From: a virus
DNA: 43,329 nucleotides
IMG/VR virus record: IMGVR_UViG_3300031885_000037
Coordinates: 1-43,329 of that record
Strand: one strand, 5' to 3'
Made by a program: the position numbers and the translations under genes. Shown piece after piece: positions 1,947 to 43,329 of this stretch (within the stretch, counting starts at the first letter, position 1; the number at the start of each line of letters is the position of its first letter). The notes under the pieces were generated by a model, which was given only the letters and a program-made list of their open reading frames with translations, searched no databases and was not told the DNA's origin.

Positions 1947-2779
1947 AGATCATCCGGGTTTTTCCGCGTCGAACTAACGCTACTCCCGATGATGATCTTG
2001 TCCGGATAAATTGTCAGCCCGGATTATTCGATGAGGCCGATGAGGTTCATATTTCAGTGACCTTTACTTGGGATATACCCGTTGCCGAAAAACTGGAGAA
2101 GGAATGGCGGCACGTTGCCCTGACAAAAATAGGTGGGCCAGCGTTGGGGGATCCCGGCGATGAATTTGAGCCGGGAATGTATCTCAAGAAAGGATATACG
2201 ATAACTTCTCGGGGTTGTCCCAATGCGTGTTGGTTTTGTTTTGTGCCCAAAAGAGAAGGCCCAATTCGGGAATTACAGATCAAGGAGGGAAGAAATATTC
2301 AAGATAATAATCTTTTGGCCTGCTTGGATAAACATATCAAAAGTGTATTTTCTATGTTAAAGAGACAAAAAGAGAAACCCATTTTCGGCGGCGGGTTAGA
2401 GGCACGAAAATTAAAACCATGGATTGCTGAAAGCCTTATTGAATTAAAGCCGGACCAGATATTCTTCGCCTACGATAAATTTGTCGATTTAATTCCGTTG
2501 GAACATGCCAGAGATTTACTGACTGAAGCATTTCCTTTTTCATCCCGTGTCTTGAGGTGTTATGTTTTATGCGGTTTTCATAATGATTCTTTTGAGAAAG
2601 CGGAAAATCGTATTCGGCAAGTCATTCAATTAGGCTTTCTGCCCTTCGCCATGCTCTATCGGGATGAAAAAAATATCCCTAGCCGGGAATGGAAACGATG
2701 GGTTAGAACCTGGATGAGGCCAGCCGCGACTATAACCGAAGCCAAGAAACGGAAATGGATTGAGGAGGCAACGGCATGA
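1943..2779 (+). CDS. Radical SAM protein
   Basis: A 278-residue protein with a TTG start at 1943 that overlaps the previous stop; a GAGGTGG ribosome-binding site lies just upstream. Residues 85-100 (TSRGCPNACWFC) hold the CX3CX2C signature of radical SAM enzymes (C92, C96, C99), which bind a 4Fe-4S cluster and S-adenosylmethionine. A GGG-L-E stretch follows about 55 residues later, as expected for the SAM-binding barrel. There is no extra cluster-binding tail and no obvious B12 or TRAM domain. It does not look like QueE. Similar stand-alone radical SAM proteins are known from uncultured phages, without a settled function. A DNA methyltransferase follows at 2817, so nucleic-acid modification is one idea, but only by position. 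Confidence 0.85.
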   Translation: MKIIRVFPRRTNATPDDDLVRINCQPGLFDEADEVHISVTFTWDIPVAEKLEKEWRHVALTKIGGPALGDPGDEFEPGMYLKKGYTITSRGCPNACWFCFVPKREGPIRELQIKEGRNIQDNNLLACLDKHIKSVFSMLKRQKEKPIFGGGLEARKLKPWIAESLIELKPDQIFFAYDKFVDLIPLEHARDLLTEAFPFSSRVLRCYVLCGFHNDSFEKAENRIRQVIQLGFLPFAMLYRDEKNIPSREWKRWVRTWMRPAATITEAKKRKWIEEATA

Positions 2780-2816
2780 CCTTCAGCGCGTCCAGGGACG
2801 GAGGATTAGGAAACAA

Positions 2817-3341
2817 ATGACCGATTTCACGCTGAACAGAATGTCCGATGATCATTGGGCAACGCCTGCATCGCTTTACGAGGCCTTGAACGCCGAATTT
2901 GATTTCAATGATGATCCCTGTCCTTTACATGGAGATGAATTAACGGACGGCTTGAAAAGAGAATGGGGTTCCAGGACATTTATGAATCCGCCGTATTCAA
3001 ATATTGCGCCTTGGATTCATAAGGCTTATTTAGAAAGCCGAAAAGGAAAATTGATTGTTGGTCTTCTCCGGGGAGACACATCAACAAAATGGTTTCATAA
3101 TTGGGTTTTGGGAAAAGCCGAAATCCGCTTTGTAAAAGGTCGGGTTAAATTCGGCGATAGGAATAGACCAGCTCCTTTCGCGTCCATAATTGCGATTTGG
3201 ACTTGCCCCGACTGCAACGACACGGGCTTCGTTGAGATCGACGTCAGATGCGGTCGAAGCCGAAAGCAATTCTGCACCTGCCCGTGCGGTCAGGAGCTGG
3301 CGGAAAAGGACGAAAAGGCAAGGGCGGGGGAGGGGGATTGA
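2817..3341 (+). CDS. Phage N6-adenine DNA methyltransferase (Dam family) with a C-terminal Cys cluster
   Basis: A 174-residue protein. Residues 13-35 (WATP, then FDFNDDPC) and NPPYS at 57-61 match the phage N-6-adenine methyltransferase family (PF05869-like); NPPY is the catalytic motif IV. The start at ATG 2817 follows a GGAGGATTAGG site and gives the usual short N-terminus. Residues 128-160 add something unusual: C-x2-C, then DTGFVE, then further Cys pairs (CTCPCG), like a zinc ribbon or DnaJ-type cluster. The methylated sequence is probably GATC, judging from the family. The phage origin candidate (29744-30394) contains repeated GATC sites, so a link is possible. The enzyme could also protect phage DNA from host restriction. 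Confidence 0.85.
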   Translation: MTDFTLNRMSDDHWATPASLYEALNAEFDFNDDPCPLHGDELTDGLKREWGSRTFMNPPYSNIAPWIHKAYLESRKGKLIVGLLRGDTSTKWFHNWVLGKAEIRFVKGRVKFGDRNRPAPFASIIAIWTCPDCNDTGFVEIDVRCGRSRKQFCTCPCGQELAEKDEKARAGEGD

Positions 3342-4307: not shown

Positions 4308-4691
4308 TTACCCCTGCTCGGGATTTTCCTCGCCCTCTTTCTCTTTGGCTTTTTCAAGTAGTTCAAATTTCAAGATATTCTCGATCAGCATGAGCAAATT
4401 GTGATAGGCTTCGGCCTTGCCTGCGGCATATGCCTTTTCAACGTCATCGCTCTTTTTCCGAAAGAGAGCAAAGAGTTTATCCGGATTGCCGTGTCGTTCG
4501 AGGAACGGCTTGATTACACCCTGCCATCCCTTCGTCGCCACGGTTGCTTTGATTTCCTCCACCATCGGCCCCATGCGTTTCCGCTGTTCCTTGAAGATCT
4601 CGCTTGGGTTGTCGGCAAACTTCTCAAACTGCTTTCCCGAGTCGTCCTCTTCCCGGCCGTAGTTGAAAAAAGATCGTGTGAGTTTTATCAA
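4308..4691 (-). CDS. Portal-adjacent hypothetical protein
   Basis: A 127-residue, highly charged, largely helical protein with an acidic tail (KEKEGEENPEQ). Its start overlaps the portal stop by four bases, so the two are translationally coupled. It is the last gene of the 25-kb late operon. No domain was recognised. Its position next to portal and terminase suggests a role in DNA packaging or in finishing the portal vertex, but that is only context. Confidence 0.7.
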   Translation of the reverse strand: MIKLTRSFFNYGREEDDSGKQFEKFADNPSEIFKEQRKRMGPMVEEIKATVATKGWQGVIKPFLERHGNPDKLFALFRKKSDDVEKAYAAGKAEAYHNLLMLIENILKFELLEKAKEKEGEENPEQG

Positions 4692-6415
4692 TATTGCTCC
4701 TCAACCTGTGGAATCGGCATTTCCTGGGGCATCCCCCGGCTCATGGTCGGCGACGGCCCCGCCTGACCCTGCTGCATCATCATTTCCCTCATGGCGGCTT
4801 GTTGAGCGTTCATCTGCTGTATGCCCTCCTGGACCTGACTCTGACCCTCCTGACTCAGCATCGGCAAGATTTCCTTGATGTTCTTCTGGCCGAGTTTGAT
4901 AAGAAGTTGCTTGATGAGCGCGATATGGTTGACCATCGGCATCTTAATCAGCCGGTCGAATGCCTGCATGAACATATTGAGGTTCATTTCCTTGAGCGAT
5001 TGGATGGATTCGGTCATCGGCTGGACCTGGAAGAAACGTTTTATCTTTTCAATATCCAAGGTGTAGAATTCGTCGGCGCGGCTCCCCGGGCCCACGATTG
5101 CCTCGTATTCCGCTCGCGGCAGGTATTCCCGAAGGTAGACCAAGAGTCGTTTGCAGGCCGGTTGGAGAACGTACGAGTCGATCTTCCGGAGCGTCCATTC
5201 GTTCCTTCCCTGAGCCGCCTGCTGGAGCCGGATAATACCCGAGGCCGTCTCCCGGCGCCTCGGCGTGGCCCCACGAGCATAATCCCACATATTTGAAACG
5301 TTCTGCATATCGTATTGCAGGCTGGCCTCCTCCTTGTAGGATGATCCGGTTACGTCCGTAACCGGGAGTTCCTTGAGTGCGTCCTGGTTCGTCGTGACGA
5401 TCACGTTCCCCGGTGCCGAATAAAGCGTTGAAAGATCGACCTCTCCGGCAAGAATGTCATAGACCCAGAGTTTGTTCAGGATCAATGAAATATTATCCCG
5501 TCTCTGCGATCGCAGGGTATTCAATTCTTTCTGGAGCGGCTTGATCGACTCCAGGAGCCCGAGTCCGAAAAACTCGCCCGGCGCCCCGGTCATCCGGCAG
5601 TCGAGCATCGGGAATTTATCGCTGAACGGCTTGACCTCGTTCTTTCTCGTATCCCGGATTACCGCCCGGCGGCCGCCGATGGTTACAACGTGGCCGTCAA
5701 ACATACAGTCCAGGAGCTCGACCAACTGCTTCTTTTCATCGAAGTAATTCCCCACGGTCGAAATCCCGACTTCCCGGAGCAACTTCGTCACCTCGTCGTC
5801 GTCGCTGTAGCCGCCCATCGACTCATCGACATCTTCATATTCGCCGTTTTTCCGGCCTTCCCTGAGCGCATCGACGGTCTCCCAGGACTTCTTGATGACC
5901 CAGTTCATCCTCGAAAGTCGCTTGATATTCGGCTCGGGGAAAACATCGAGCGTGGACGGCGTGTCGAAATTCATCCTCTGAAAATTGTTTGTCTCGCCCG
6001 AAAGGATCGGGTAATTGATGAAGTAGCCGACGTTGAAAATATTGACGTTCTTAATAAGCTCCTCGAGTTCAAGCAGAAACTCGCAGGACTCGTCGCTCAA
6101 TGCCCAGTGGATTATTTGCTCGAGCTCCTGACAGACCTCGGGACTGATCGCCCGGACCCGGGGTTCCAAGGAAAAGATGACCGGCGAAGCCGTGATCGAG
6201 AGCATGAGCGAGGCGGTCATGTCCTCCATGAAGGCAAAGGAGTAGGGAACGAAGATATCGTGTTTATAGACCTTCTCGCCGCCTTCCTTGTAACATTTAT
6301 AGAGCTTATAGTTCTCCCTGCCCTTCGTAAAGAAGTCGGCACAGTAGTTTTCGGATACATAGTATCTTTGGAGCCACTTTTTAAGTTCTTCGAGTTGTTC
6401 CGTGTTTTGTGCCAT
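4688..6415 (-). CDS. Portal protein
   Basis: A 575-residue protein downstream of TerL. It has the layout of podovirus portals: an N-terminal helical region (WLQRYY, ENYKLYKCY), a central mixed region, the ETASGIIRLQQAA segment at about 390-403 that matches the stem/crown part of P22-like and SU10-like portals, and a Gln/Met-rich C-terminus at about 530-575. It forms the ring through which DNA enters and leaves the head. The ATG at 6415 has TAGGAG a short distance upstream. Unusually, it is at the far end of the late operon, about 21 kb from scaffold and capsid. Confidence 0.85.
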   Translation of the reverse strand: MAQNTEQLEELKKWLQRYYVSENYCADFFTKGRENYKLYKCYKEGGEKVYKHDIFVPYSFAFMEDMTASLMLSITASPVIFSLEPRVRAISPEVCQELEQIIHWALSDESCEFLLELEELIKNVNIFNVGYFINYPILSGETNNFQRMNFDTPSTLDVFPEPNIKRLSRMNWVIKKSWETVDALREGRKNGEYEDVDESMGGYSDDDEVTKLLREVGISTVGNYFDEKKQLVELLDCMFDGHVVTIGGRRAVIRDTRKNEVKPFSDKFPMLDCRMTGAPGEFFGLGLLESIKPLQKELNTLRSQRRDNISLILNKLWVYDILAGEVDLSTLYSAPGNVIVTTNQDALKELPVTDVTGSSYKEEASLQYDMQNVSNMWDYARGATPRRRETASGIIRLQQAAQGRNEWTLRKIDSYVLQPACKRLLVYLREYLPRAEYEAIVGPGSRADEFYTLDIEKIKRFFQVQPMTESIQSLKEMNLNMFMQAFDRLIKMPMVNHIALIKQLLIKLGQKNIKEILPMLSQEGQSQVQEGIQQMNAQQAAMREMMMQQGQAGPSPTMSRGMPQEMPIPQVEEQY

Positions 6416-6424
6416 GGTAGTCTC

Positions 6425-7789
6425 CTACAAATATCGTTGTTCCGCCCATTTTTGCTCAAGTCCCTGCCTGAAGGACGCTATCGCCTGGCGGTCAATCGGC
6501 CGGATATTACTGTTTAAAATATACTTACAACAGTCTGTGTAGTCGTCCCTAACCTTTTTCGGCCTATCCTTGGAACCCTTCTCTTCACGCGCACGGAGTG
6601 ATGCCCAGGATTCCCACGTCAAGCCCTCGACCTGCTGAATGAATTCTTCGCAGTTCGCCGTGACATGGAATTTTGGTTCTGGATAATCAACGAGGAGGTC
6701 GTTTAGGGTTTGAAAGAAGGCGTTGAAATCGGAGTTGCCGTCCCTGAAGAACAGTCCGCAATCCCTGAAAATCTTGCCTATGGACGCTTCGCCGACCGCC
6801 CGGTATTCGATCTTCGAGCTTCGGGGGTCGATGAACCTAGCCGTGACCCTCTCCTTGGCCGTGGCCTCGATCCGCATGATCTCGGCTGCGGTCTCCCTGG
6901 TCGTCATCTGCCGGTCTTCGGACGGAAGCATGAATTTCTGCTCCCGATAGAACCACCAATGCTCCCTTTCATCCAGGGCCGCCCACAGTGAGTAATGCGG
7001 CCTCTGCTGGTGGGGGTCACAGGCCATCAACCGCATCCAGGAAAGCGGAAGATCGGCGGGAAGGACGACGTGCTTGTCCCGATTGAATTTCGGGAAGACC
7101 CGGCCGTACTCCCGAGTATATTTTCCGTAGTAGATCCGGAAGGCATCGTTCTCACGGCCCTTCGATTTTAGGTCTTCGATATCTTTCTTGAGTTTGTTTT
7201 GGTTCAAAAAGGGATTCGAGAAAGACGAGAAGTTAAAACCAATACAATCGCTTGTCGGCTTATATAAAGCACTTTCATACATCTCAAGGAATTCGGTCGT
7301 TATATCGTGGATCTTTGGGTCGGGGACCGAACCGATGAAAAGCGCATCACCGTTGAAGTCCATGAGCATCGGCTTGATAACGTCATACCAAACCGTCCAG
7401 GGGATTGTCGGAAACTCGTCGAAAACCACAAAATGAAGGCCCGCACCGAGAAGCCAGATTTGGTCTTGAGTGCCGAGAAACTCGATGAGGCTCCCGTTGG
7501 TGAGTTCAACGTAGTGGCGGTCATCGCGTTTCTTGGCAATCATTTCCTTGGGCAGATAATGGAAGAGGATGCGCCAGGCGATCCGGTACGCCTGATCCTT
7601 GGTCGGAGCGATGTACCAAATCCTTGCGTTGGGAATCTCTATCGCCCGCTTGATGATCTCGTTCACGGCCAAGAGCGTCTTCCCAAACCTTCGACCGGCG
7701 ATCACCAGGACCATAAGACCACTGCAAAACGGGCGGAGTGCGGTATGGATTTTCAACTGATCCGCATGAGGGTTGTATTCAATATTCAT
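6425..7789 (-). CDS. terL: Terminase large subunit
   Basis: A 454-residue packaging motor. The ATPase domain has Walker A GRRFGKT (residues 32-38) and Walker B VVFDE (121-125). The C-terminal nuclease domain has acidic residues in MACDPH (D258), RFIDPRS (D321) and DDYTDCC (about 423), as in RNase H-fold terminase nucleases. It translocates DNA into the prohead through the portal and cuts it. The ATG at 7789 overlaps the upstream stop by four bases. The length is typical. Packaging style (headful or sequence-specific) cannot be told from this alone, but the circular assembly fits headful packaging. Confidence 0.95.
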   Translation of the reverse strand: MNIEYNPHADQLKIHTALRPFCSGLMVLVIAGRRFGKTLLAVNEIIKRAIEIPNARIWYIAPTKDQAYRIAWRILFHYLPKEMIAKKRDDRHYVELTNGSLIEFLGTQDQIWLLGAGLHFVVFDEFPTIPWTVWYDVIKPMLMDFNGDALFIGSVPDPKIHDITTEFLEMYESALYKPTSDCIGFNFSSFSNPFLNQNKLKKDIEDLKSKGRENDAFRIYYGKYTREYGRVFPKFNRDKHVVLPADLPLSWMRLMACDPHQQRPHYSLWAALDEREHWWFYREQKFMLPSEDRQMTTRETAAEIMRIEATAKERVTARFIDPRSSKIEYRAVGEASIGKIFRDCGLFFRDGNSDFNAFFQTLNDLLVDYPEPKFHVTANCEEFIQQVEGLTWESWASLRAREEKGSKDRPKKVRDDYTDCCKYILNSNIRPIDRQAIASFRQGLEQKWAEQRYL

Positions 7790-12620: not shown

Positions 12621-13882
12621 TGCCCATTTGTATATTTGAGTTTTTGCCCGGTTTTGGGGTTGGTCGCCGTTTGGCCTTCCTGATATTGTGCGGCTGGCAC
12701 TTTAGGAACGGCGGGTTGGCCCGCACCGGCGACTGCGGCCTTCGCCTTTTCGAAGAGTTTCCCAATTCCAAGAGAATCAATTAGGTCGGTAAAGGGTTTC
12801 CCGGTACGGCTTTCTATTCCCAACATTTCGTCAAGAAGTTCCTCATTGATCCTTTCGAGGCGGAAAGGTTTTTGCCTATATTGCTTGGCAGATTCAGAAA
12901 GAACTTTATTGTGATCGTCAATGCCGCGATTCGCTTGAAAAAGTGTCGCCCTAAATCGCTCTTCCGGAGTCTTATAGTATTGTCCCTCGGGAACAATCAT
13001 AAAAGTCGAACCGGGAGCTTCAAGTCCCTTAATTGCTGCGGCAATATCCATCCCGGTCGTTCCGGTTTTACCCGTCTTCATATCGGTAAGATATTTGACC
13101 ATAGTCATTTTGAAGTTTAGTGCTTTATCAACCGTACTCTGATAATCCTGGAATTGCTGGTTGGCGAGCTTTTGCTGTTCCATGCCGCGACCCGTCTCCC
13201 TGAAAGGTCCTGCTGCGGTAAGCCCTTCATAATTTACGCCTTCAATATTGAGTCCAGCCGCCTTTGCGGCATCCATAGTTTCCCGGACCCAGGCAACCGT
13301 CTGCTGAGGTGTCTTTTCCCCGAGTTGCTTGTAGAATAGGTCGATCTGCTTCTGTGTGTCGTATTTTTTAAGCTCCATCGCGTTTTCGTATTCTTTCTGG
13401 CCCATCTTTATCCCGAATTCCCTCTGTCCAGCCGCCACTTGCGCTTCGGGGAGAGTCATTGGACGCTGACCCGCCGGGATCGACATCGCCGGACCCGTGG
13501 GTGGTCCTCCCACAAGCTGAGGCGTTGCGGCCATCGGCCCCGGCTCCGGTTGCCCTCCCATTCCGGGGGGAGGTGCCGTGACCTGTCTTTCCGGGAATCG
13601 CATTGTCGCGGCCTGCCGCGCCCCGTTCAAGAGTTCCTGAATCCCGGGCATATTCTCGATTTTCAGGTTCTTAATCATGGCCTGGCCTTCCGGCGTGCCG
13701 ATGAGTTCCAGGGGTATCTGATTTTCGGCAACCGCCTGGAGTACCTTCGCCGCCATGCCTTCTCTCCGCCGTCTTTCCTCCATGCCCATCATCGCTCCCT
13801 GCGCGATTTGGTTGGGATTGAATCTCTCCAAAAAACTGCTCCAAAAATTAGGCTTCGGTGGTAACATCATTACTCTACTCAT
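12602..13882 (-). CDS. Internal virion protein candidate
   Basis: A 426-residue protein. The N-terminal 100 residues are helical, residues about 105-150 are a Pro/Gly/Met-rich linker, the middle is coiled-coil-like (QREFGIKMGQKEYENAMELKK) and the C-terminus ends in a small beta-like module (TNPKTGQKLKYTNGQW). It overlaps the S74 gene upstream by eight bases and the giant ejection protein downstream by nineteen. Context suggests an ejection or core protein analogous to T7 gp14/gp15. No homologous domain was recognised. Confidence 0.65.
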   Translation of the reverse strand: MSRVMMLPPKPNFWSSFLERFNPNQIAQGAMMGMEERRRREGMAAKVLQAVAENQIPLELIGTPEGQAMIKNLKIENMPGIQELLNGARQAATMRFPERQVTAPPPGMGGQPEPGPMAATPQLVGGPPTGPAMSIPAGQRPMTLPEAQVAAGQREFGIKMGQKEYENAMELKKYDTQKQIDLFYKQLGEKTPQQTVAWVRETMDAAKAAGLNIEGVNYEGLTAAGPFRETGRGMEQQKLANQQFQDYQSTVDKALNFKMTMVKYLTDMKTGKTGTTGMDIAAAIKGLEAPGSTFMIVPEGQYYKTPEERFRATLFQANRGIDDHNKVLSESAKQYRQKPFRLERINEELLDEMLGIESRTGKPFTDLIDSLGIGKLFEKAKAAVAGAGQPAVPKVPAAQYQEGQTATNPKTGQKLKYTNGQWVPIR

Positions 13883-28376: not shown

Positions 28377-29222
28377 TTATTCGGTAAGTTTATCGGAGCC
28401 AAGAATCGCCTCCTTGATAAGTTGTTCGGCAGTTTTACTCCCCGTCCCGGCCGCCCGTTGGCCGCCGCCCGAAGCGCCCGAGATGCCGGCCGGTTTGGCC
28501 TTGGCCGCGATGACCTTCAGCCGGTCCATGTCGATATCCCCAAACGCCTCTTTCCGGATCTCCGCGATATCCGCCTGCCGCTTGATTTCGGCCCTGGCAT
28601 AGAGATCGTCGAGGTCCGCGTTGGGTTCCGACAGCGACATTTGGTGCATGATCGGCCGCAGCCGCTCGAATTTCTCCGGGTCCTTCGCTATCAGGGCCTG
28701 GGCCTTGCGGTAGGCCATGTCATATTCCTTGTCGGTCGATTCCTGCCGGATTTCCTGCTTGACCTCTTCCTTGATCTGCTTCCGGGTGGTCTGCATGAAC
28801 GCATTGAATTTGACCTTGTCCTGGACGAGCTCGTAGGGGTCTTCCACCGACACCGGCGGCTGAAATGACGGTTGGGGGCTACCCGCCGCCCTCGGCGGGG
28901 GTAAAGTCGCCTGCAATTTGGAGACGCGTAATTCTTGACTCAACCTTGTGTTCTGTTGCTCCAGGCCCTCCAGGGCATTGACGATATCCGCAGCGCTCTT
29001 GTATCCCTTCTTCACGGCAACGTCGTGAAGCTCGGGGATTGTCGTCAGATCAAGCAGTCCCGTATCAGGGACTTGACCCGCTCCGGCGCCCGCATCGTCT
29101 TCCAGGTCAGTCCCGCCCGCCATGTCAGGCAACGGAGGCTGATCGTCTTCCAAGGCCGTATCGGCGCCCGTTCCCGTAACAGGGAGGCTACCGGCCAGGG
29201 GTTTCTTTTTGTCTTCTGCCAT
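28377..29222 (-). CDS. Scaffold protein
   Basis: A 281-residue, acidic, Pro/Asp-rich then helical protein directly upstream of the capsid gene. Residues 1-60 are disordered (LEDDQPPLPDMAGG); 80-100 and 130-210 are coiled-coil-like (QIREEVKQEIRQES-type charge pattern); the C-terminus is a basic/Gly-rich linker and a short helix, the usual capsid-binding end. The start at ATG 29222 follows GAGGAGATTGAA; the frame extends to a TTG at 29300, but that codon sits in the candidate promoter. It guides prohead assembly and leaves later. Confidence 0.8.
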   Translation of the reverse strand: MAEDKKKPLAGSLPVTGTGADTALEDDQPPLPDMAGGTDLEDDAGAGAGQVPDTGLLDLTTIPELHDVAVKKGYKSAADIVNALEGLEQQNTRLSQELRVSKLQATLPPPRAAGSPQPSFQPPVSVEDPYELVQDKVKFNAFMQTTRKQIKEEVKQEIRQESTDKEYDMAYRKAQALIAKDPEKFERLRPIMHQMSLSEPNADLDDLYARAEIKRQADIAEIRKEAFGDIDMDRLKVIAAKAKPAGISGASGGGQRAAGTGSKTAEQLIKEAILGSDKLTE

Positions 29223-29271
29223 TTCAATCTCCTCGTCATAAAAAACGAAGCCTAGATGTTGTACGATTATT

Positions 29272-29300
29272 CCAATACCACGAAATGTAGCGGTTGTCAA
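29272..29300 (-). promoter_or_regulatory. Candidate late-operon promoter
   Basis: On the minus strand TTGACA (29300-29295) is followed after 17 bases by TATTGG (29277-29272), about 50 bases before the scaffold ATG. The -35 is perfect and the -10 only half-matches, which would suit an activator-dependent late promoter. The -10 lies in a 15-base sequence that recurs at 29976-29990 with one mismatch. Confidence 0.45.
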
Positions 29301-29362
29301 GTCCTGGAATTGGCAGAATTAGGGATTGACGGATAATGATGACTATGATATTTGATATAGTC

Positions 29363-29743
29363 ATGAATAAATATAACAGGAAATATTCTCAATCCGAGAA
29401 AGGCAAGGCGGCCCGCAAAAGATATGCTCAATCAGAGAAGGGCAGGTTAAACGCAGTAAGGTGTAACAAAAGGCAAAGGCAAAGAGGCCGGGGTAAAGTT
29501 TTAACACACTATGGGGGCGACCCTCCGAAATGCGCCTGTTGCAGCGAGTCTCATTATGAGTTTCTGACGATTGACCATATCAATGGAGGGGGCGGGAAAG
29601 ACCGCAAAGCAAGGGGAGGCGGGACGGGGTTTTACCAATCCTTGGTAAAAGACGGTTTCCCCCCCGGGCTTAGAGTTTTATGCTATAACTGTCATCTGGC
29701 ACTCGGATTCTCCGGCTACTGCCCTCACCAAAGCCAAGGCTAG
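29363..29743 (+). CDS. HNH endonuclease
   Basis: About 126 residues from ATG 29363 (an upstream in-frame ATG at 29336 is possible; neither has a strong ribosome site). The N-terminus has two basic units with QSEKGK spaced by about 12 residues, a DNA-contact repeat common in phage HNH enzymes. The nuclease core shows C-x2-C (CACC), LTIDHINGGG with the catalytic His, and a final LCYNCH with CPH, the zinc pair of the endonuclease-VII-like HNH fold. It is alone between the late promoter region and the origin candidate. It may be a free-standing homing endonuclease or serve in replication or packaging. Confidence 0.85.
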   Translation: MNKYNRKYSQSEKGKAARKRYAQSEKGRLNAVRCNKRQRQRGRGKVLTHYGGDPPKCACCSESHYEFLTIDHINGGGGKDRKARGGGTGFYQSLVKDGFPPGLRVLCYNCHLALGFSGYCPHQSQG

Positions 29744-29890
29744 GGTGGGTAACTAGACAAGGGATCGTTTTCGCCGAGCCAAAAAAATTAAGAGAATCGA
29801 GAAAGAAAGACTCAGCTAGGGAAAGAACCAAACCCCCTTCATGGGATACCCATGATCTACAGTATTTTTCTTTCTTCCTTTAAGAGAATC

Positions 29891-29911
29891 TTAATAGTTA
29901 ATAGTTAATGT
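29891..29911 (+). repeat. Tandem 7-bp repeat TTAATAG
   Basis: TTAATAG, TTAATAG and TTAATGT follow one another without a gap. The stretch is almost pure A/T and could melt easily. It lies 20 bases before the 10-bp array. Confidence 0.7.
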
Positions 29912-29930
29912 AAAGGACTGCAACATGATT

Positions 29931-29970
29931 AGGATTTTTACGGATTTTTGTGGATTTTTGTGGATTTAAT
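29931..29970 (+). repeat. Tandem 10-bp T-rich array
   Basis: Four units of ten bases share GGATTT: AGGATTTTTA, CGGATTTTTG, TGGATTTTTG and TGGATTTAAT. A period of about one helical turn and T-rich units resemble DNA-unwinding elements of origins. Confidence 0.7.
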
Positions 29971-30010
29971 CCTGAACGACTATTCCAATAACTATATGAA
30001 GATTAAGTGT

Positions 30011-30197
30011 CCTGAAAAGAGGACAGCGAGAGAGGAAAATAGACGACTAATTTAGTCGAGTATTCAAGAAAAATCGGAGGGGGGGGTAAAAGGGATCGTT
30101 TTTTTGGGCTCCCAAGGAGTGGTAAAAAGGGTAGGGGAGCAGTCTGTGGTAAGGGATCGTTTTCCTAAGAGAGGGGGGGGTACCCTGAAAAGAGGAC
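30011..30197 (+). repeat. 14-bp direct repeat CCTGAAAAGAGGAC
   Basis: Two exact copies, at 30011-30024 and 30184-30197. In the second copy a run of eight G lies just upstream and a run of six G just downstream. Iterons 2 and 3 lie between the copies. Confidence 0.7.
30044..30058. promoter_or_regulatory. Perfect dyad CGACTAA-T-TTAGTCG
   Basis: Seven-base arms flank a single T. The site looks like an operator or a small protein-binding palindrome; no T-run follows, so it is not a terminator. Confidence 0.5.
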
Positions 30198-30284
30198 GGG
30201 GGGATAGGACGTCTGCCAACAGCTGACGGAAGGGATCGTTGGGCGACAGGTTAAGGGACGTTCAGAGTCCCATCCCCCCCGACA

Positions 30285-30302
30285 GCCCTTTCGGGCCTTT
30301 TT
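30285..30302 (+). terminator. Short intrinsic terminator candidate
   Basis: GCCC-TTTC-GGGC (30285-30296) is followed by C and five T. The stem is only four pairs, so the call is modest. It would stop plus-strand transcription from the HNH gene or origin region before the small-gene operon. Confidence 0.4.
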
Positions 30303-30312
30303 GACCCTCAAC

Positions 30313-30337
30313 GATATATCTTTACCAGTGATATATC
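30313..30337. repeat. Paired GATATATC palindromes
   Basis: GATATATC occurs at 30313-30320 and 30330-30337, exactly 17 bases apart start to start. Each is self-complementary. They may be paired operator sites or part of an easily melted region beside the origin candidate. Confidence 0.45.
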
Positions 30338-30394
30338 ATCATTTATGACCTTATTCCTTTATTATCAACAATATACTAGTTTACATAATAGTTC

Positions 30395-30535
30395 TTATGC
30401 GACACTGGGCTCTTTTTCCAGTTTGAGGATGATGGCGCCGTTCTGCCTGGAATTGAGCCGTTTCGTAACCCATTTAAGTGAGTAACAGATTACCCTTTTC
30501 CTCTCTTTTCTTAGGCTAATTTCTTTTCCTTTCAT
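30395..30535 (-). CDS. Possible small basic protein (46 aa)
   Basis: A 46-residue minus-strand frame from ATG 30535 to TAA 30395, rich in Lys and Arg (KEISLRKERKRVICYSLKWV). The purine-rich strand gives it a plausible coding look, but no clear ribosome site precedes it. If real it would be transcribed toward the origin. It could equally be chance in an A/G-rich stretch. Confidence 0.3.
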   Translation of the reverse strand: MKGKEISLRKERKRVICYSLKWVTKRLNSRQNGAIILKLEKEPSVA

Positions 30536-30564
30536 TTATTTTCTTGGGGGAATGTTGATTTTTC

Positions 30565-30593
30565 TTGACATTGACTTGATCTGGCATTATCTT
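30565..30593 (+). promoter_or_regulatory. Strong sigma70-like promoter
   Basis: TTGACA (30565-30570), 17-base spacer, TATCTT (30588-30593). The -10 hexamer is the same as that of the repressor promoter. It would start a message about 15 bases before the ATG at 30615, leaving just the GGAGG ribosome site. Confidence 0.75.
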
Positions 30594-30614
30594 TTTAGTG
30601 GAGGTAAAAAATCA

Positions 30615-30827
30615 ATGAGAAAATCAAATGATCAGTTCGATGATCAAGGCCGCTTAATTAACGGCTTTGATTATGAGCGCCAGGCTTGGGTACTGGGCGG
30701 GAAGTATGTTCGCTGCGGCCATTCGGACCGGGCAAGCCGGTTGATGAATTGCCAGTGCTACGGGCGGCTACATGAGGGCGAAGAAACAGAGGCCGTAGAC
30801 CGGATCAAAATTTTCCCGGTGAGGTAA
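30615..30827 (+). CDS. Small Cys-containing protein, first gene of the small-gene operon
   Basis: A 70-residue protein from ATG 30615; GGAGG lies ten bases upstream and the promoter at 30565 excludes the longer start at 30552. It has VRCGHSDRASRLMNCQCYG (C at about 34, then C-x-C), which may bind a metal, and WVLGGKYVRCGH near the middle. It is followed by an acidic end. No family was recognised. It is the first gene behind the near-consensus promoter, so probably well expressed. Confidence 0.65.
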   Translation: MRKSNDQFDDQGRLINGFDYERQAWVLGGKYVRCGHSDRASRLMNCQCYGRLHEGEETEAVDRIKIFPVR

Positions 30828-32998: not shown

Positions 32999-33028
32999 GT
33001 TTCTCGGGGAAAACGGGGGGATAAGGGA

Positions 33029-33054
33029 TGCCGAAGAGGGGACTCGAACCTCTC
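33029..33054 (-). other. attP core: 3' end of a tRNA gene (Leu-like)
   Basis: Read on the minus strand, GAGAGGTTCGAGTCCCC then TCTTCGGCA is the T-arm (GGTTCGAGTCC) and 3' acceptor strand of a tRNA with discriminator A. CTTCGGC would pair with GCCGAAG, the common acceptor start of bacterial tRNA-Leu. No 5' tRNA half is present. One T-stem mismatch suggests the homologous core is shorter than the fragment. It lies 22 bases from the integrase stop, the classic place for attP. Confidence 0.8.
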
Positions 33055-33075: not shown

Positions 33076-34152
33076 TTAAAACGCCCGCCGTACTGGAATC
33101 AAGGGCCGGAGCGTTTGATCTAATTTTTCAACAGTCTGTCTCTGTTCAGCAAGTGCGGGGTGAGTATATTTCAGGGTCGTCTTGAGGTCGGCATGGCCGA
33201 GTACAGCCTTGGCAGTAGCCAGGCCGGACGAGGCCGAGACAATCGTTGAGACCGTGTGGCGCAGCTGGTGGAAGTGAAAATCCTGGACCCCCGATAGCTT
33301 CCGGATCTGCCTGACCGCATAGAATACGGTGTTGGGGTTACGCCAGGAGACCGGGAAAACAAACGGGCTGCGGATAGGTTGTCGACCGATGATCTCTCGG
33401 GAAGTTTTATTCAGGGTTGAAATCCTATAGGGTTGATTTGTGCGACTCGTCGACCTACGTCTGCTCTTGGTTTGGCTGATCGGCATATAGATTACATCGT
33501 CCCGAATCCACACCCGCCGGAGGTTGAGGATCTCGGACAGCCGGAGCCCGGTCATAAGTCCGAAGAGAACCAGGTCATAAATCACTCGCTGGATACTTGT
33601 CTTGGCTGCCGCCTGAATTTCCATGGCCGCAGTGAGGACGGCTGAGATTTCCTCATTGGACAAAGCCCGCCGGTCGGATTCCTCAACGAAAGGCTGATAC
33701 GATCTCGCCGGGTTTTCCGTGATGTACCCGTCCTCGACGGCCTGGTTGAAAAGATGGCGCAATAGTTCAAAGTATCGGTTGACGGTCGAGGGCTTGAGCC
33801 CCCAGGAGAAAAGCGTCTTCTCAAGTTTCTCGATATCGGTGCGGCCGATCTCCCGGAGCCCGGGGTCTCCCCAAATCTCCATGAGCTTCCCAAGCCGCTG
33901 GTGATCCCGGTCCCATGATTTTTTACTATGATTGCGTTCAAGGTATCGCCGGCAGTAACCTATGAACCCTATCTTTTTTATAGACTCTATCGGGATATTG
34001 AAATGCCGGGCCAGGATTTCTTCTTCGACCTGCTTGGCCCGAGCGGAAAGAAAAGACTCCTGGCCGCGGCGCAACCGCAGCGCCTTGTAATAAACCCGGC
34101 CTTCGATCATCCGCTTGAAGTAGTAGCGGTTATGAATCATATAAATAGTCAT
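33076..34152 (-). CDS. int: Tyrosine integrase
   Basis: A 358-residue site-specific recombinase. N-terminal residues 1-60 form a basic arm-binding domain, 60-155 a SAM-like core-binding domain (FIGYCRRYLERNHSKKSW) and 160-335 the catalytic domain with R204 (TGLRLSEIL), H295-x-x-R298 (HQLRHT), H320 (LGHADLKTT) and nucleophile Y329 (LKYTH). Beta-strand Lys is probably K229. It integrates the phage at attP (33029) into a host tRNA gene. The start at 34152, or Met at 34140, lies inside the end of the repressor gene, so the two are translated together. Confidence 0.95.
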   Translation of the reverse strand: MTIYMIHNRYYFKRMIEGRVYYKALRLRRGQESFLSARAKQVEEEILARHFNIPIESIKKIGFIGYCRRYLERNHSKKSWDRDHQRLGKLMEIWGDPGLREIGRTDIEKLEKTLFSWGLKPSTVNRYFELLRHLFNQAVEDGYITENPARSYQPFVEESDRRALSNEEISAVLTAAMEIQAAAKTSIQRVIYDLVLFGLMTGLRLSEILNLRRVWIRDDVIYMPISQTKSRRRSTSRTNQPYRISTLNKTSREIIGRQPIRSPFVFPVSWRNPNTVFYAVRQIRKLSGVQDFHFHQLRHTVSTIVSASSGLATAKAVLGHADLKTTLKYTHPALAEQRQTVEKLDQTLRPLIPVRRAF

Positions 34153-38320: not shown

Positions 38321-39043
38321 ATGCCAAGAGGTAGAATCCTTTTGAAGAACGTATCTACCAGCATGAAACTTTCTTTACTGAAGACTGATTCAGCCCGGCT
38401 ACTCTATTCCTGGCTGATCCCGCACGTCGATTACAACGGTTGCTATTCGGGAGACGCCGAGGTGGTCAGGGGCAAGATATTCACTCGGCTCAAAAAAACG
38501 GCTGTGGAAGTTGAGGTTTGGCTTGCCGAATTGGAAGATAAAAAACTCATAATTCGATACGAGGCGAACGGGGATAAGTTTCTCCAGGTCGTCGGCTTCA
38601 TCGAAAAACAACCGCACCTGAACCCAGACAGGGAAGCGTGTTCGCCTATTCCGCTACCGCCCGGGAAGAAGGCACCGAAGAAACCGGCCAAGCCGAAGCC
38701 GGAAAAGGGGGTCGATCCGGGCGACATTGAACTCGCCAAGTTACTGTCCGCCGAGATTAAGAAAAACAATCCCATGTATTCGGAGAAGCCGGAGCAAGTA
38801 AATTCCTGGGCGGATGATATTCGACTTATGCGCGAACAGGACAAGCGCGGTCCCGCAGACATTCGCAAGGTCATGCTTTGGTGTCAGGCGGATTCCTTTT
38901 GGAAGGAGAATATCCTATCCGGCGCAAACCTCAGAAAACATTTCATTCAGCTATGGGGAAAAATGAACAGCGGCGGTAAAGAAAAGACTCCCGCAGAACT
39001 TGAGGAAGAGGACGAGCGGGCATTGAAGGACCCGGGAAGATGA
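38321..39043 (+). CDS. Replication initiator / helicase loader candidate
   Basis: A 240-residue protein. Residues 1-100 form a winged-helix domain (LKTDSARLLYSWLIPHVDYNG, LKKTAVEVEVWLAELEDKKL) as in phage replisome organisers. A Pro/Lys-rich linker (105-130) leads to a helical C-domain with SWADDIRLMREQDKR and CQADSFWKENILSGANLRK, the DnaD-like/loader signature. It stands directly before the DnaB-type helicase, overlapping it by four bases. It would bind the origin and deliver the helicase. Confidence 0.75.
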   Translation: MPRGRILLKNVSTSMKLSLLKTDSARLLYSWLIPHVDYNGCYSGDAEVVRGKIFTRLKKTAVEVEVWLAELEDKKLIIRYEANGDKFLQVVGFIEKQPHLNPDREACSPIPLPPGKKAPKKPAKPKPEKGVDPGDIELAKLLSAEIKKNNPMYSEKPEQVNSWADDIRLMREQDKRGPADIRKVMLWCQADSFWKENILSGANLRKHFIQLWGKMNSGGKEKTPAELEEEDERALKDPGR

Positions 39044-40269
39044 AGAACACCGAGCGCGTTATCCTGGCCCTCGTCATCAACGACGACAACCTAGCCCCGT
39101 TACTCCTCCAGAACTGCGACGAGAAATTTTTCGAGGGTGAAGAACACCGAGTTATATACAGCGAATTAAAGAACTTACACGACAGTAAGTGCGGTTGGAA
39201 TTTTACATCTTTTTACGACAATATCGAGGGCCGTGTGAAGGCTTCATATTATGCGAGTCTCATAGATTTGATAATCGGTGTCCACGATCCGCGCGGCTTC
39301 CTTCTCCAAAATATCCTGAAGGTGAAAAAGGCTAGATCGAAGCGCGATATTCTTTTTTGGGCGGCGAAGTACATCAAGGAGCCTTACGTCGATTGGGATG
39401 AGATCACGGCGGCGGTTTCCAACCTTTCCGTTTCCGGGATAAGCAGGGAGAACGCGGACATTCACTTGGCCTATGATCGTTATGTTGAATGGATCAGCCG
39501 CCAGCAGACCGGGATCAGCCTTGGATTCCCGAGCCTGGACAGATTGACGGATACTTTTTGTTACGGCGAAATCCTGAGCTTTATCGGAAGAACGACAACT
39601 GGAAAAACATTCCTGGCCCTGAATGTGATCCGGCATATCCTCGAAACAACAACCGACACCATCGGTCTGTTCTCCATGGAGATGCCGAAGCAGGCGATCT
39701 TCGAGCGGTTTTTCCAGCTACACCACAACGTGAGCAGATGGGACGTGAAGACGAAGATTTACGAGAAGGAGTTACTCGACCCCTTTATGGCGAAATACGA
39801 GCAGGTGAAGATTTACGAGAAAATCTATTCGGTCTCGGAAATGGCCGCGATAGCCGAGGCGGACGGCCTGAAGATCGTGGTCGTGGACTTCCTGGGGCTC
39901 ATCCGGTCGGACATCGAGGGGAACCTTTACACCCAAACGACAAGGAAGATCACGGAGCTGGCGCAGATGGCGAAGGATAAGGAAGTCCTGGTGATCGTCC
40001 TGATCCAACTATCCAGGGAGGGCGGCGACGGGTCGATCCCCGTCAGTATCACGATGTGCCGGGAGTCGGGCGCCATAGAGGAGATAAGCCATTTCATCTA
40101 TGGGATCTGGCAGCCGTCCATAAACGCGAAGAAGCGGGACAAGTGGGAAGGGAAGGTCTGCGTGAAGCTCCTGAAGAACAAGCGGGGGAAGTCCGGCGGG
40201 ATCCAGTGTTCGTTTGATTATGTTTCCGGAAGGATGGAAGAAATTCCAGGGGATTTGAAGGAGGAATAA
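39040..40269 (+). CDS. Replicative DnaB-type helicase
   Basis: A 409-residue hexameric helicase. Residues 1-110 resemble the DnaB N-terminal domain; 155-400 form the RecA-like core with Walker A GRTTTGKT (183-190), a following SMEMP motif (H1a-like) and Walker B VVVDFLGLI (about 268-276). The motif IQLSREGG matches DnaB motif 3. No primase domain is attached, so host primase is expected. It unwinds phage DNA at the fork. Confidence 0.9.
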   Translation: MKNTERVILALVINDDNLAPLLLQNCDEKFFEGEEHRVIYSELKNLHDSKCGWNFTSFYDNIEGRVKASYYASLIDLIIGVHDPRGFLLQNILKVKKARSKRDILFWAAKYIKEPYVDWDEITAAVSNLSVSGISRENADIHLAYDRYVEWISRQQTGISLGFPSLDRLTDTFCYGEILSFIGRTTTGKTFLALNVIRHILETTTDTIGLFSMEMPKQAIFERFFQLHHNVSRWDVKTKIYEKELLDPFMAKYEQVKIYEKIYSVSEMAAIAEADGLKIVVVDFLGLIRSDIEGNLYTQTTRKITELAQMAKDKEVLVIVLIQLSREGGDGSIPVSITMCRESGAIEEISHFIYGIWQPSINAKKRDKWEGKVCVKLLKNKRGKSGGIQCSFDYVSGRMEEIPGDLKEE

Positions 40270-42977: not shown

Positions 42978-43238
42978 ATGAGCCCAGAAATAAGCGTAGA
43001 AATCGAGATTTGGTGTGCTTGCGGAGTTGGTCTTTGCAATCAAACGACGGATTCTAGTCGGCGGGGCAAGCCGTCTTTTACAGTCGATCCGTGTGATAAA
43101 TGTCTAGAGAAGGCTAGGCAAGAGGGTTACGACAAAGGATACGACAGGGGGGATGATGATGGATATAGAAGGGCGTGTCAGGATGCCCAGGGCAAGCCGA
43201 CCTCGGCGGGAGGGGAAGATGAAAAAGGTAGGGTATAA
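42978..43238 (+). CDS. Small Cys-rich protein with a Gly/Tyr/Asp repeat
   Basis: An 86-residue protein. The first half has WCACGVGLC and CDKCLEKA, a four- or five-Cys zinc site. The second half has GYDKGYDRGDDDGYRR, a short repeat of GYD[KR]G typical of coiled phage proteins with GYxxGxxxG spacing. The start is immediately after the previous stop. The end overlaps the gene that crosses the join. Confidence 0.65.
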   Translation: MSPEISVEIEIWCACGVGLCNQTTDSSRRGKPSFTVDPCDKCLEKARQEGYDKGYDRGDDDGYRRACQDAQGKPTSAGGEDEKGRV

Positions 43239-43329
43239 CGATTGCCCCGATGCAAAATGTTCTCACTATGAGGAGGATGAATATTCGGGTAGTGAAGTGA
43301 TCCATTGCATTTATTTGGACGATGATAAT
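43219..43329 (+). CDS. Small Cys-containing protein, 5' part of the gene crossing the join
   Basis: ATG 43219 follows GGGAGGGG. The frame continues from the window end into position 3 of the window start and stops at 146, giving 53 residues. The start overlaps the previous gene by twenty bases. See the entry for 1-146. Confidence 0.75.
   Translation, partial: MKKVGYNDCPDAKCSHYEEDEYSGSEVIHCIYLDDDN
43235..43329. repeat. Terminal direct repeat, right copy
   Basis: Exact copy of positions 1-95. Removing it leaves a circle of 43,234 bases. Confidence 0.95.

Follow-up and report, generated by a model that had tools for sequence, protein, structure and literature searches.

Replication origins of comparable layout

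Iteron origins, as found in plasmids and lambda-type phages, consist of several copies of one short site, set in the same orientation beside AT-rich DNA; in the lambda type, the iterons lie inside the initiator gene. The Bacillus phage SPP1 has an intergenic origin, oriR, that is remote from its initiator gene and combines direct repeats with an AT-rich unwinding element. SPP1 supplies an initiator, helicase loading and a DnaB-type helicase (gp38, gp39 and gp40), with primase and polymerase coming from the host (PMC6316719). In the PLE satellite of Vibrio cholerae, a non-coding origin with multiple repeat families lies between divergent operons and drives replication through a RepA_N initiator, the N-terminal domain of which is structurally DnaD-like (PMC7145576).

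The locus described here is a gene-free block in the 43,329-nt viral record IMGVR_UViG_3300031885_000037, which is referred to as a whole below as the window. Like SPP1 oriR, the block would be an intergenic, repeat-bearing origin far from the initiator gene and equipped with an AT-rich element, all of this predicted here from sequence. SPP1 differs in having a second origin, oriL, inside gene 38 as well as a separate loader, gp39, whereas the loader gene of the window carries no conserved repeats. With PLE, the block shares several repeat families in a non-coding region between divergent operons. In PLE, however, long iterons of semi-palindromic sequence surround a poly-A tract, while the sites in the window are 11 bp long, dispersed and, unlike those of PLE, 8 kb from the initiator gene. 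A search of the phage collection with the block found no DNA similarity.

The phage and its relatives

An exact 95-bp terminal repeat (1-95 = 43235-43329) indicates that the genome is most likely circular, with a length of 43,234 bp. Its gene content includes an integrase (33076-34152), Cro/C1-type regulators, SU10-like portal and adaptor proteins, a terminase and a likely capsid gene, and the phage is a temperate one from an uncultivated and undescribed group. Rightward genes predominate from about 30.6 kb across the coordinate start to 4.1 kb and leftward genes run from 29.3 kb down to 4.3 kb, with the gene-free block as the point of divergence. The right part of the window had no credible DNA match among phages (megablast), nor did the block among phages and plasmids (distant blastn), and nothing matched in the bacterial genomes searched for relatives. 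Helicase searches led to four relatives (L002-L005), of which L005 sits on a 45,048-bp contig, G001, that is about 80% identical to the window over most of the genome. Another, L004, starts partway into the block, where its first 40 bases (L004:1-40) are a suspicious poly-C run coinciding with the G-rich region; this may be a true homopolymer of that length or an artefact of assembly. In the search for further relatives, a pairwise site pattern matched nothing, patterns built from block segments matched only L004 and G001, and helicase and capsid scans gave no additional copy of the block, so that G001 was the only full relative of it found.

The terminase-portal genes (4688-7789) and the scaffold genes (28377-29300) stand at either end of the structural operon in the window. 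The ORF layout of L019-L021, distantly related by their capsid, suggests that these two groups are adjacent there, since large ORFs immediately precede the capsid gene, and the structural operon of the window may therefore be rearranged. An HNH endonuclease gene (29336-29743, + strand) separates the late promoter from the block, and a tblastn search of G001 gave no significant match for it; since it is missing from G001, where the scaffold gene and its promoter come straight before the block, it is best read as an insertion in the window. The gene is free-standing, and it may have targeted the edge of the conserved block for insertion.

A conserved, repeat-dense gene-free block

The proposed origin region (29744-30614) is the largest gap in the genome and has its densest repeats. 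At 871 bp, it is five times longer than the next gap (174 bp) in a hand-picked gene set, which bears out an earlier note on this DNA that had called it the only long gene-free stretch. That note ended the block too early, at 30394; the true edge is a start codon near 30615. On this side, the block is closed by a promoter-like TTGACA-17-TATCTT of the rightward early operon (30565-30593, + strand), conserved in G001 and L004. At the left edge, the sequence reads as a promoter-like TTGACA-17-TATTGG of the leftward structural operon (29272-29300, - strand); G001 has TTGACA-17-TAATGG in the corresponding position. L004 and G001 (L031:3480-3500) also share an operator-like inverted repeat, ATCCA-N-TATTTGGAT, ahead of their early promoter, and the window is without it. 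Repeated 11-mers number 23 per 700 bp in the block against a genome mean of 0.7, a count matched by none of 500 shuffles, and an 11-mer at three copies was never seen in 1000 shuffles. Every repeat family that had been named (11-bp sites, 10-bp and 7-bp arrays, a 14-bp repeat and G-runs) is present.

The 11-bp site, AAGGGATCGTT, occurs four times in exact form, always on the + strand and, within the window, only in the block; it is confined to the block in G001 as well, with two exact copies and one that has a single mismatch. The first site (29759-29769) is identical in G001 at 13252, and the second (30090-30100) is identical at 13589, amid DNA that otherwise aligns poorly. The third (30151-30161) falls within a stretch missing from G001. 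The fourth (30230-30240) follows a conserved CAGCTGACGG (CAGGTGACGG in L004); its counterparts are AAGGAATCGTT in G001 at 13665, with one mismatch, and TAGGGATCGTT in L004 at 58; the latter, which differs in its first base, is the one copy in the short part of the block that L004 covers. Spacings are 331, 61 and 79 bp in the window and 337 and 76 bp in G001, so that the first is similar in both genomes. Random triples of block segments equal the conservation of the sites in 3% of trials, which makes it moderately unusual. The term iteron, applied to them earlier, is apt for one short direct repeat present in several copies of a single orientation (four exact, + strand), as in iteron origins. 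It does not extend to their arrangement, since the copies are dispersed and form no tandem, regularly spaced or helically phased array, in which they are unlike iteron origins.

Other repeats have fared unevenly. A 7-bp tandem array, TTAATAG x2.7 (29891-29909, + strand), is two bases shorter in G001, and a 10-bp tandem array of GGATTTTTGT x3.6 (29932-29967, + strand) corresponds there to a 10-12-bp periodic array with a different, ACTCCTGAA-like unit. The 14-bp direct repeat, CCTGAAAAGAGGAC, stands at 30011 and 30184; G001 is without its second copy and without the first G-run. Conservation of the repeats in relatives, proposed in the earlier note as a check, is therefore partial: some persist in G001, but the unit of the 10-bp array has changed and the 14-bp repeat is lost. 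Loss of all repeats in a relative that keeps the initiator, which the note held to speak against an origin, did not occur in G001. A GATCAT array with a 10-bp period is seen in L004 (L004:305-375) and is missing in the window. Three hairpins are kept in G001. The hairpin or palindrome CATGGGATACCCATG (29840-29854) is identical, the inverted repeat TGTCC-N8-GGACA (30008-30025) has a conserved stem and a changed loop, and the palindrome CGACTAATTTAGTCG (30044-30058) is CTACTAATTTAGTAG in G001, a paired change.

Across the block, which G001 keeps at L031:2753-3611, conservation is mosaic. The most conserved segment (29759-29921) is 92% identical to G001 and holds two copies of TTAAGAGAATC (29788 and 29880) besides CATGGGATACCCATG; the 92% identity over 29759-29918 ranks among the highest 1% of all 160-bp windows across the whole alignment. 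Indels of 4 and 2 bases mean that this segment does not code for protein. Conversely, 30040-30180 has the lowest conservation of any aligned part of the two genomes, and the G-rich, fast-changing part of the block (30079-30280, + strand), with G8 at 30079 and 30173, G6 at 30198 and C7 at 30274, includes the least conserved part of the alignment. The block as a whole is a real, conserved, functional element.

The block as a probable origin

Two segments of the block are easily melted by computed stability, giving it the adjacent AT-rich element of an iteron origin. A candidate unwinding element (29852-29951) is the fourth least stable 100-bp segment in the genome, and its G001 counterpart (13315-13414) is among the 12 least stable there. 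A second AT-rich segment (30299-30398) is the third least stable and contains a promoter-like TTATCA-16-CATAAT (30362-30389, + strand) that both G001 and L004 conserve. The block thus holds two of the four least stable segments of the window, and the G001 block likewise two of the four in G001.

As in SPP1, the phage encodes both an initiator/loader and a DnaB-type helicase. The DnaD-like helicase loader/initiator (38321-39043, + strand), proposed to bind AAGGGATCGTT, matches phrog_2514 in its C-terminal part (3e-29) and phrog_2149 in a separate N-terminal part (1.3e-15) that resembles replication initiators. Its gene overlaps that of the DnaB-like replicative helicase (39040-40269, + strand; phrog_19, 9.7e-48; PF03796). 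In G001, an extra gene lies between the two (L005:9192-10004), matching RlaP, the RNA repair pathway DNA polymerase beta family (PF10127); it is missing in the window. The statement that the phage has no primase or polymerase agrees with a scan of about 30 window proteins, covering small ORFs in part, in which neither was found. Iterons were also sought in the loader gene itself, which has only unconserved two-copy families and no origin-like repeats. Over 105 N-terminal columns, the loader is 78% identical to its G001 counterpart, compared with about 30% for the repressor-like protein; with the sites unchanged, they fit the loader better than the repressor.

Taken together, the block is probably a theta-type origin with a layout like that of SPP1 oriR and PLE, using the 38321 loader/initiator, the 39040 helicase and host primase and polymerase, a reading drawn from sequence comparison. 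Replication would start in the block, where the N-terminal domain of the initiator/loader would bind the dispersed AAGGGATCGTT sites and one adjacent AT-rich segment, either 29852-29951 or 30299-30398, would melt, as the computed stabilities suggest. From what is known of its family, the DnaD-like C-terminal domain would then load the phage helicase. Host primase and polymerase would take over, with forks running co-directionally with both divergent operons, and the hairpins may serve as binding or single-strand initiation sites. An origin accounts jointly for four features of the block, its repeats, its unstable DNA, its position and its length, and the phage encodes the partners it needs. 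It is favoured by the only long gap and the densest repeats coinciding, and by sites restricted to the block in both genomes, on one strand and with a similar first spacing. The retained hairpins, one of them through a paired change, and the share of unstable segments in both blocks argue for it too, as does a location between conserved divergent promoters from which almost all genes point away. The lack of a conserved repeat family in the loader gene, the placement of attP and terL/portal elsewhere and the SPP1 and PLE precedents, both studied by experiment, point the same way.

Several observations count against an origin. The earlier note had expected cumulative GC skew to mark one near 30 kb; the minimum is at 26.3 kb (29.2 kb for AT skew), and fourfold-degenerate sites have almost no skew, so that skew follows gene orientation and gives no support. 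The array of sites is irregular, with counts that differ (4 versus 2+1), and its conservation is just moderately above that of the rest of the block. No perfect DnaA box was found anywhere in the genome. The AlphaFold model of the loader (pLDDT 50) is too poor to use, so its DNA-binding domain remains putative, and a single full relative of the block was found. The origin proposed earlier stands as the best single explanation, one that joins repeats, unstable DNA, position and co-conservation with the initiator gene; it is reached by inference, and skew adds nothing to it. A narrower version, in which sparse, fixed 11-bp initiator sites are coupled to an array that keeps its 10-bp periodicity or its melting, and not its sequence, as one close relative exchanges the unit for another, is improbable. 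Control by methylation was also considered, as every AAGGGATCGTT site except one copy in G001 holds GATC and the window has a Dam-type N6-adenine methyltransferase gene (2760-3341; PF05869, 3.9e-21). It is unlikely to be essential, because the block has no excess of GATC (6 versus 5 expected) and a search of G001 gave no significant Dam relative.

Alternative explanations

Alternatively, the block may be a large transcription-control region that serves both divergent operons, early and late, with the late switch among its tasks, which is unlikely but deserves some weight. The AAGGGATCGTT sites would then be activator or repressor sites and the hairpins protein sites or leader elements. Conserved structural and early promoters do flank the block, a further conserved + strand promoter-like site lies at 30362-30389, and palindromes that change in a paired way would be well matched to dimeric regulators. 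However, 871 bp far exceeds the needs of two promoters, the sites are some 325-805 bp away from the early promoter and have not diverged as the repressor-like protein has (30%), and the divergent int/repressor region is without them. Transcription control covers the edges of the block and could cover all of it.

It is improbable that the block is transcribed into a structured non-coding RNA. Two-sequence consensus folding beats column shuffles (z -4.1 on the + strand, -4.3 on the - strand), stems are kept while loops change and the indels exclude coding. Yet a folding signal that is equal on both strands is expected for DNA inverted repeats, single-sequence z values are about -1.8 in the window and -2.9 to -3.2 in G001, a terminator-like hairpin at 30278 is not conserved and there is just one paired change. 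Rfam 15 gave no match at the gathering threshold and none credible below it, and a tRNA/tmRNA search found nothing. A CsrA-type sponge RNA was rejected, with ANGGA at 10 versus 7.1 expected on the + strand being unconvincing.

A packaging (pac/cos) or terminal site is very improbable. The repeats do lie in a gap adjoining structural genes, and a circular assembly with a 95-bp end repeat is possible for headful-packaged or cohesive-ended phages. Such sites usually adjoin the small-terminase gene, however, and the block does not adjoin terminase genes: terL (6425-7789) and portal, in the region 4.7-7.8 kb, are about 22 kb off, in the part of the structural operon most distant from the block.

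An attachment or other recombination site is the least credible reading: core-like palindromic 10-bp arms around 7 bp (AATAGACGAC TAATTTA GTCGAGTATT, 30038-30064) speak for it, but the usual sign of attP, a conserved core equal to a host gene end beside the integrase, is found outside the block, as a tRNA 3' end (33026-33050, reverse complement GGTTCGAGTCCCCTCTTCGGCATCC) that adjoins the integrase gene and is conserved in G001, so that attP in the block is in practice excluded. The same tRNA core could reveal the host tRNA.

Implications

The block is most likely an element of a familiar kind, here in a phage group that is undescribed, and not a new type of system. The window also shows the insertion of an HNH gene exactly at the boundary of a conserved non-coding control block. 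For an uncultivated group of temperate phages with SU10-like portal and adaptor proteins, without a DNA match in the phage collection, the block gives a candidate origin that can be tested.
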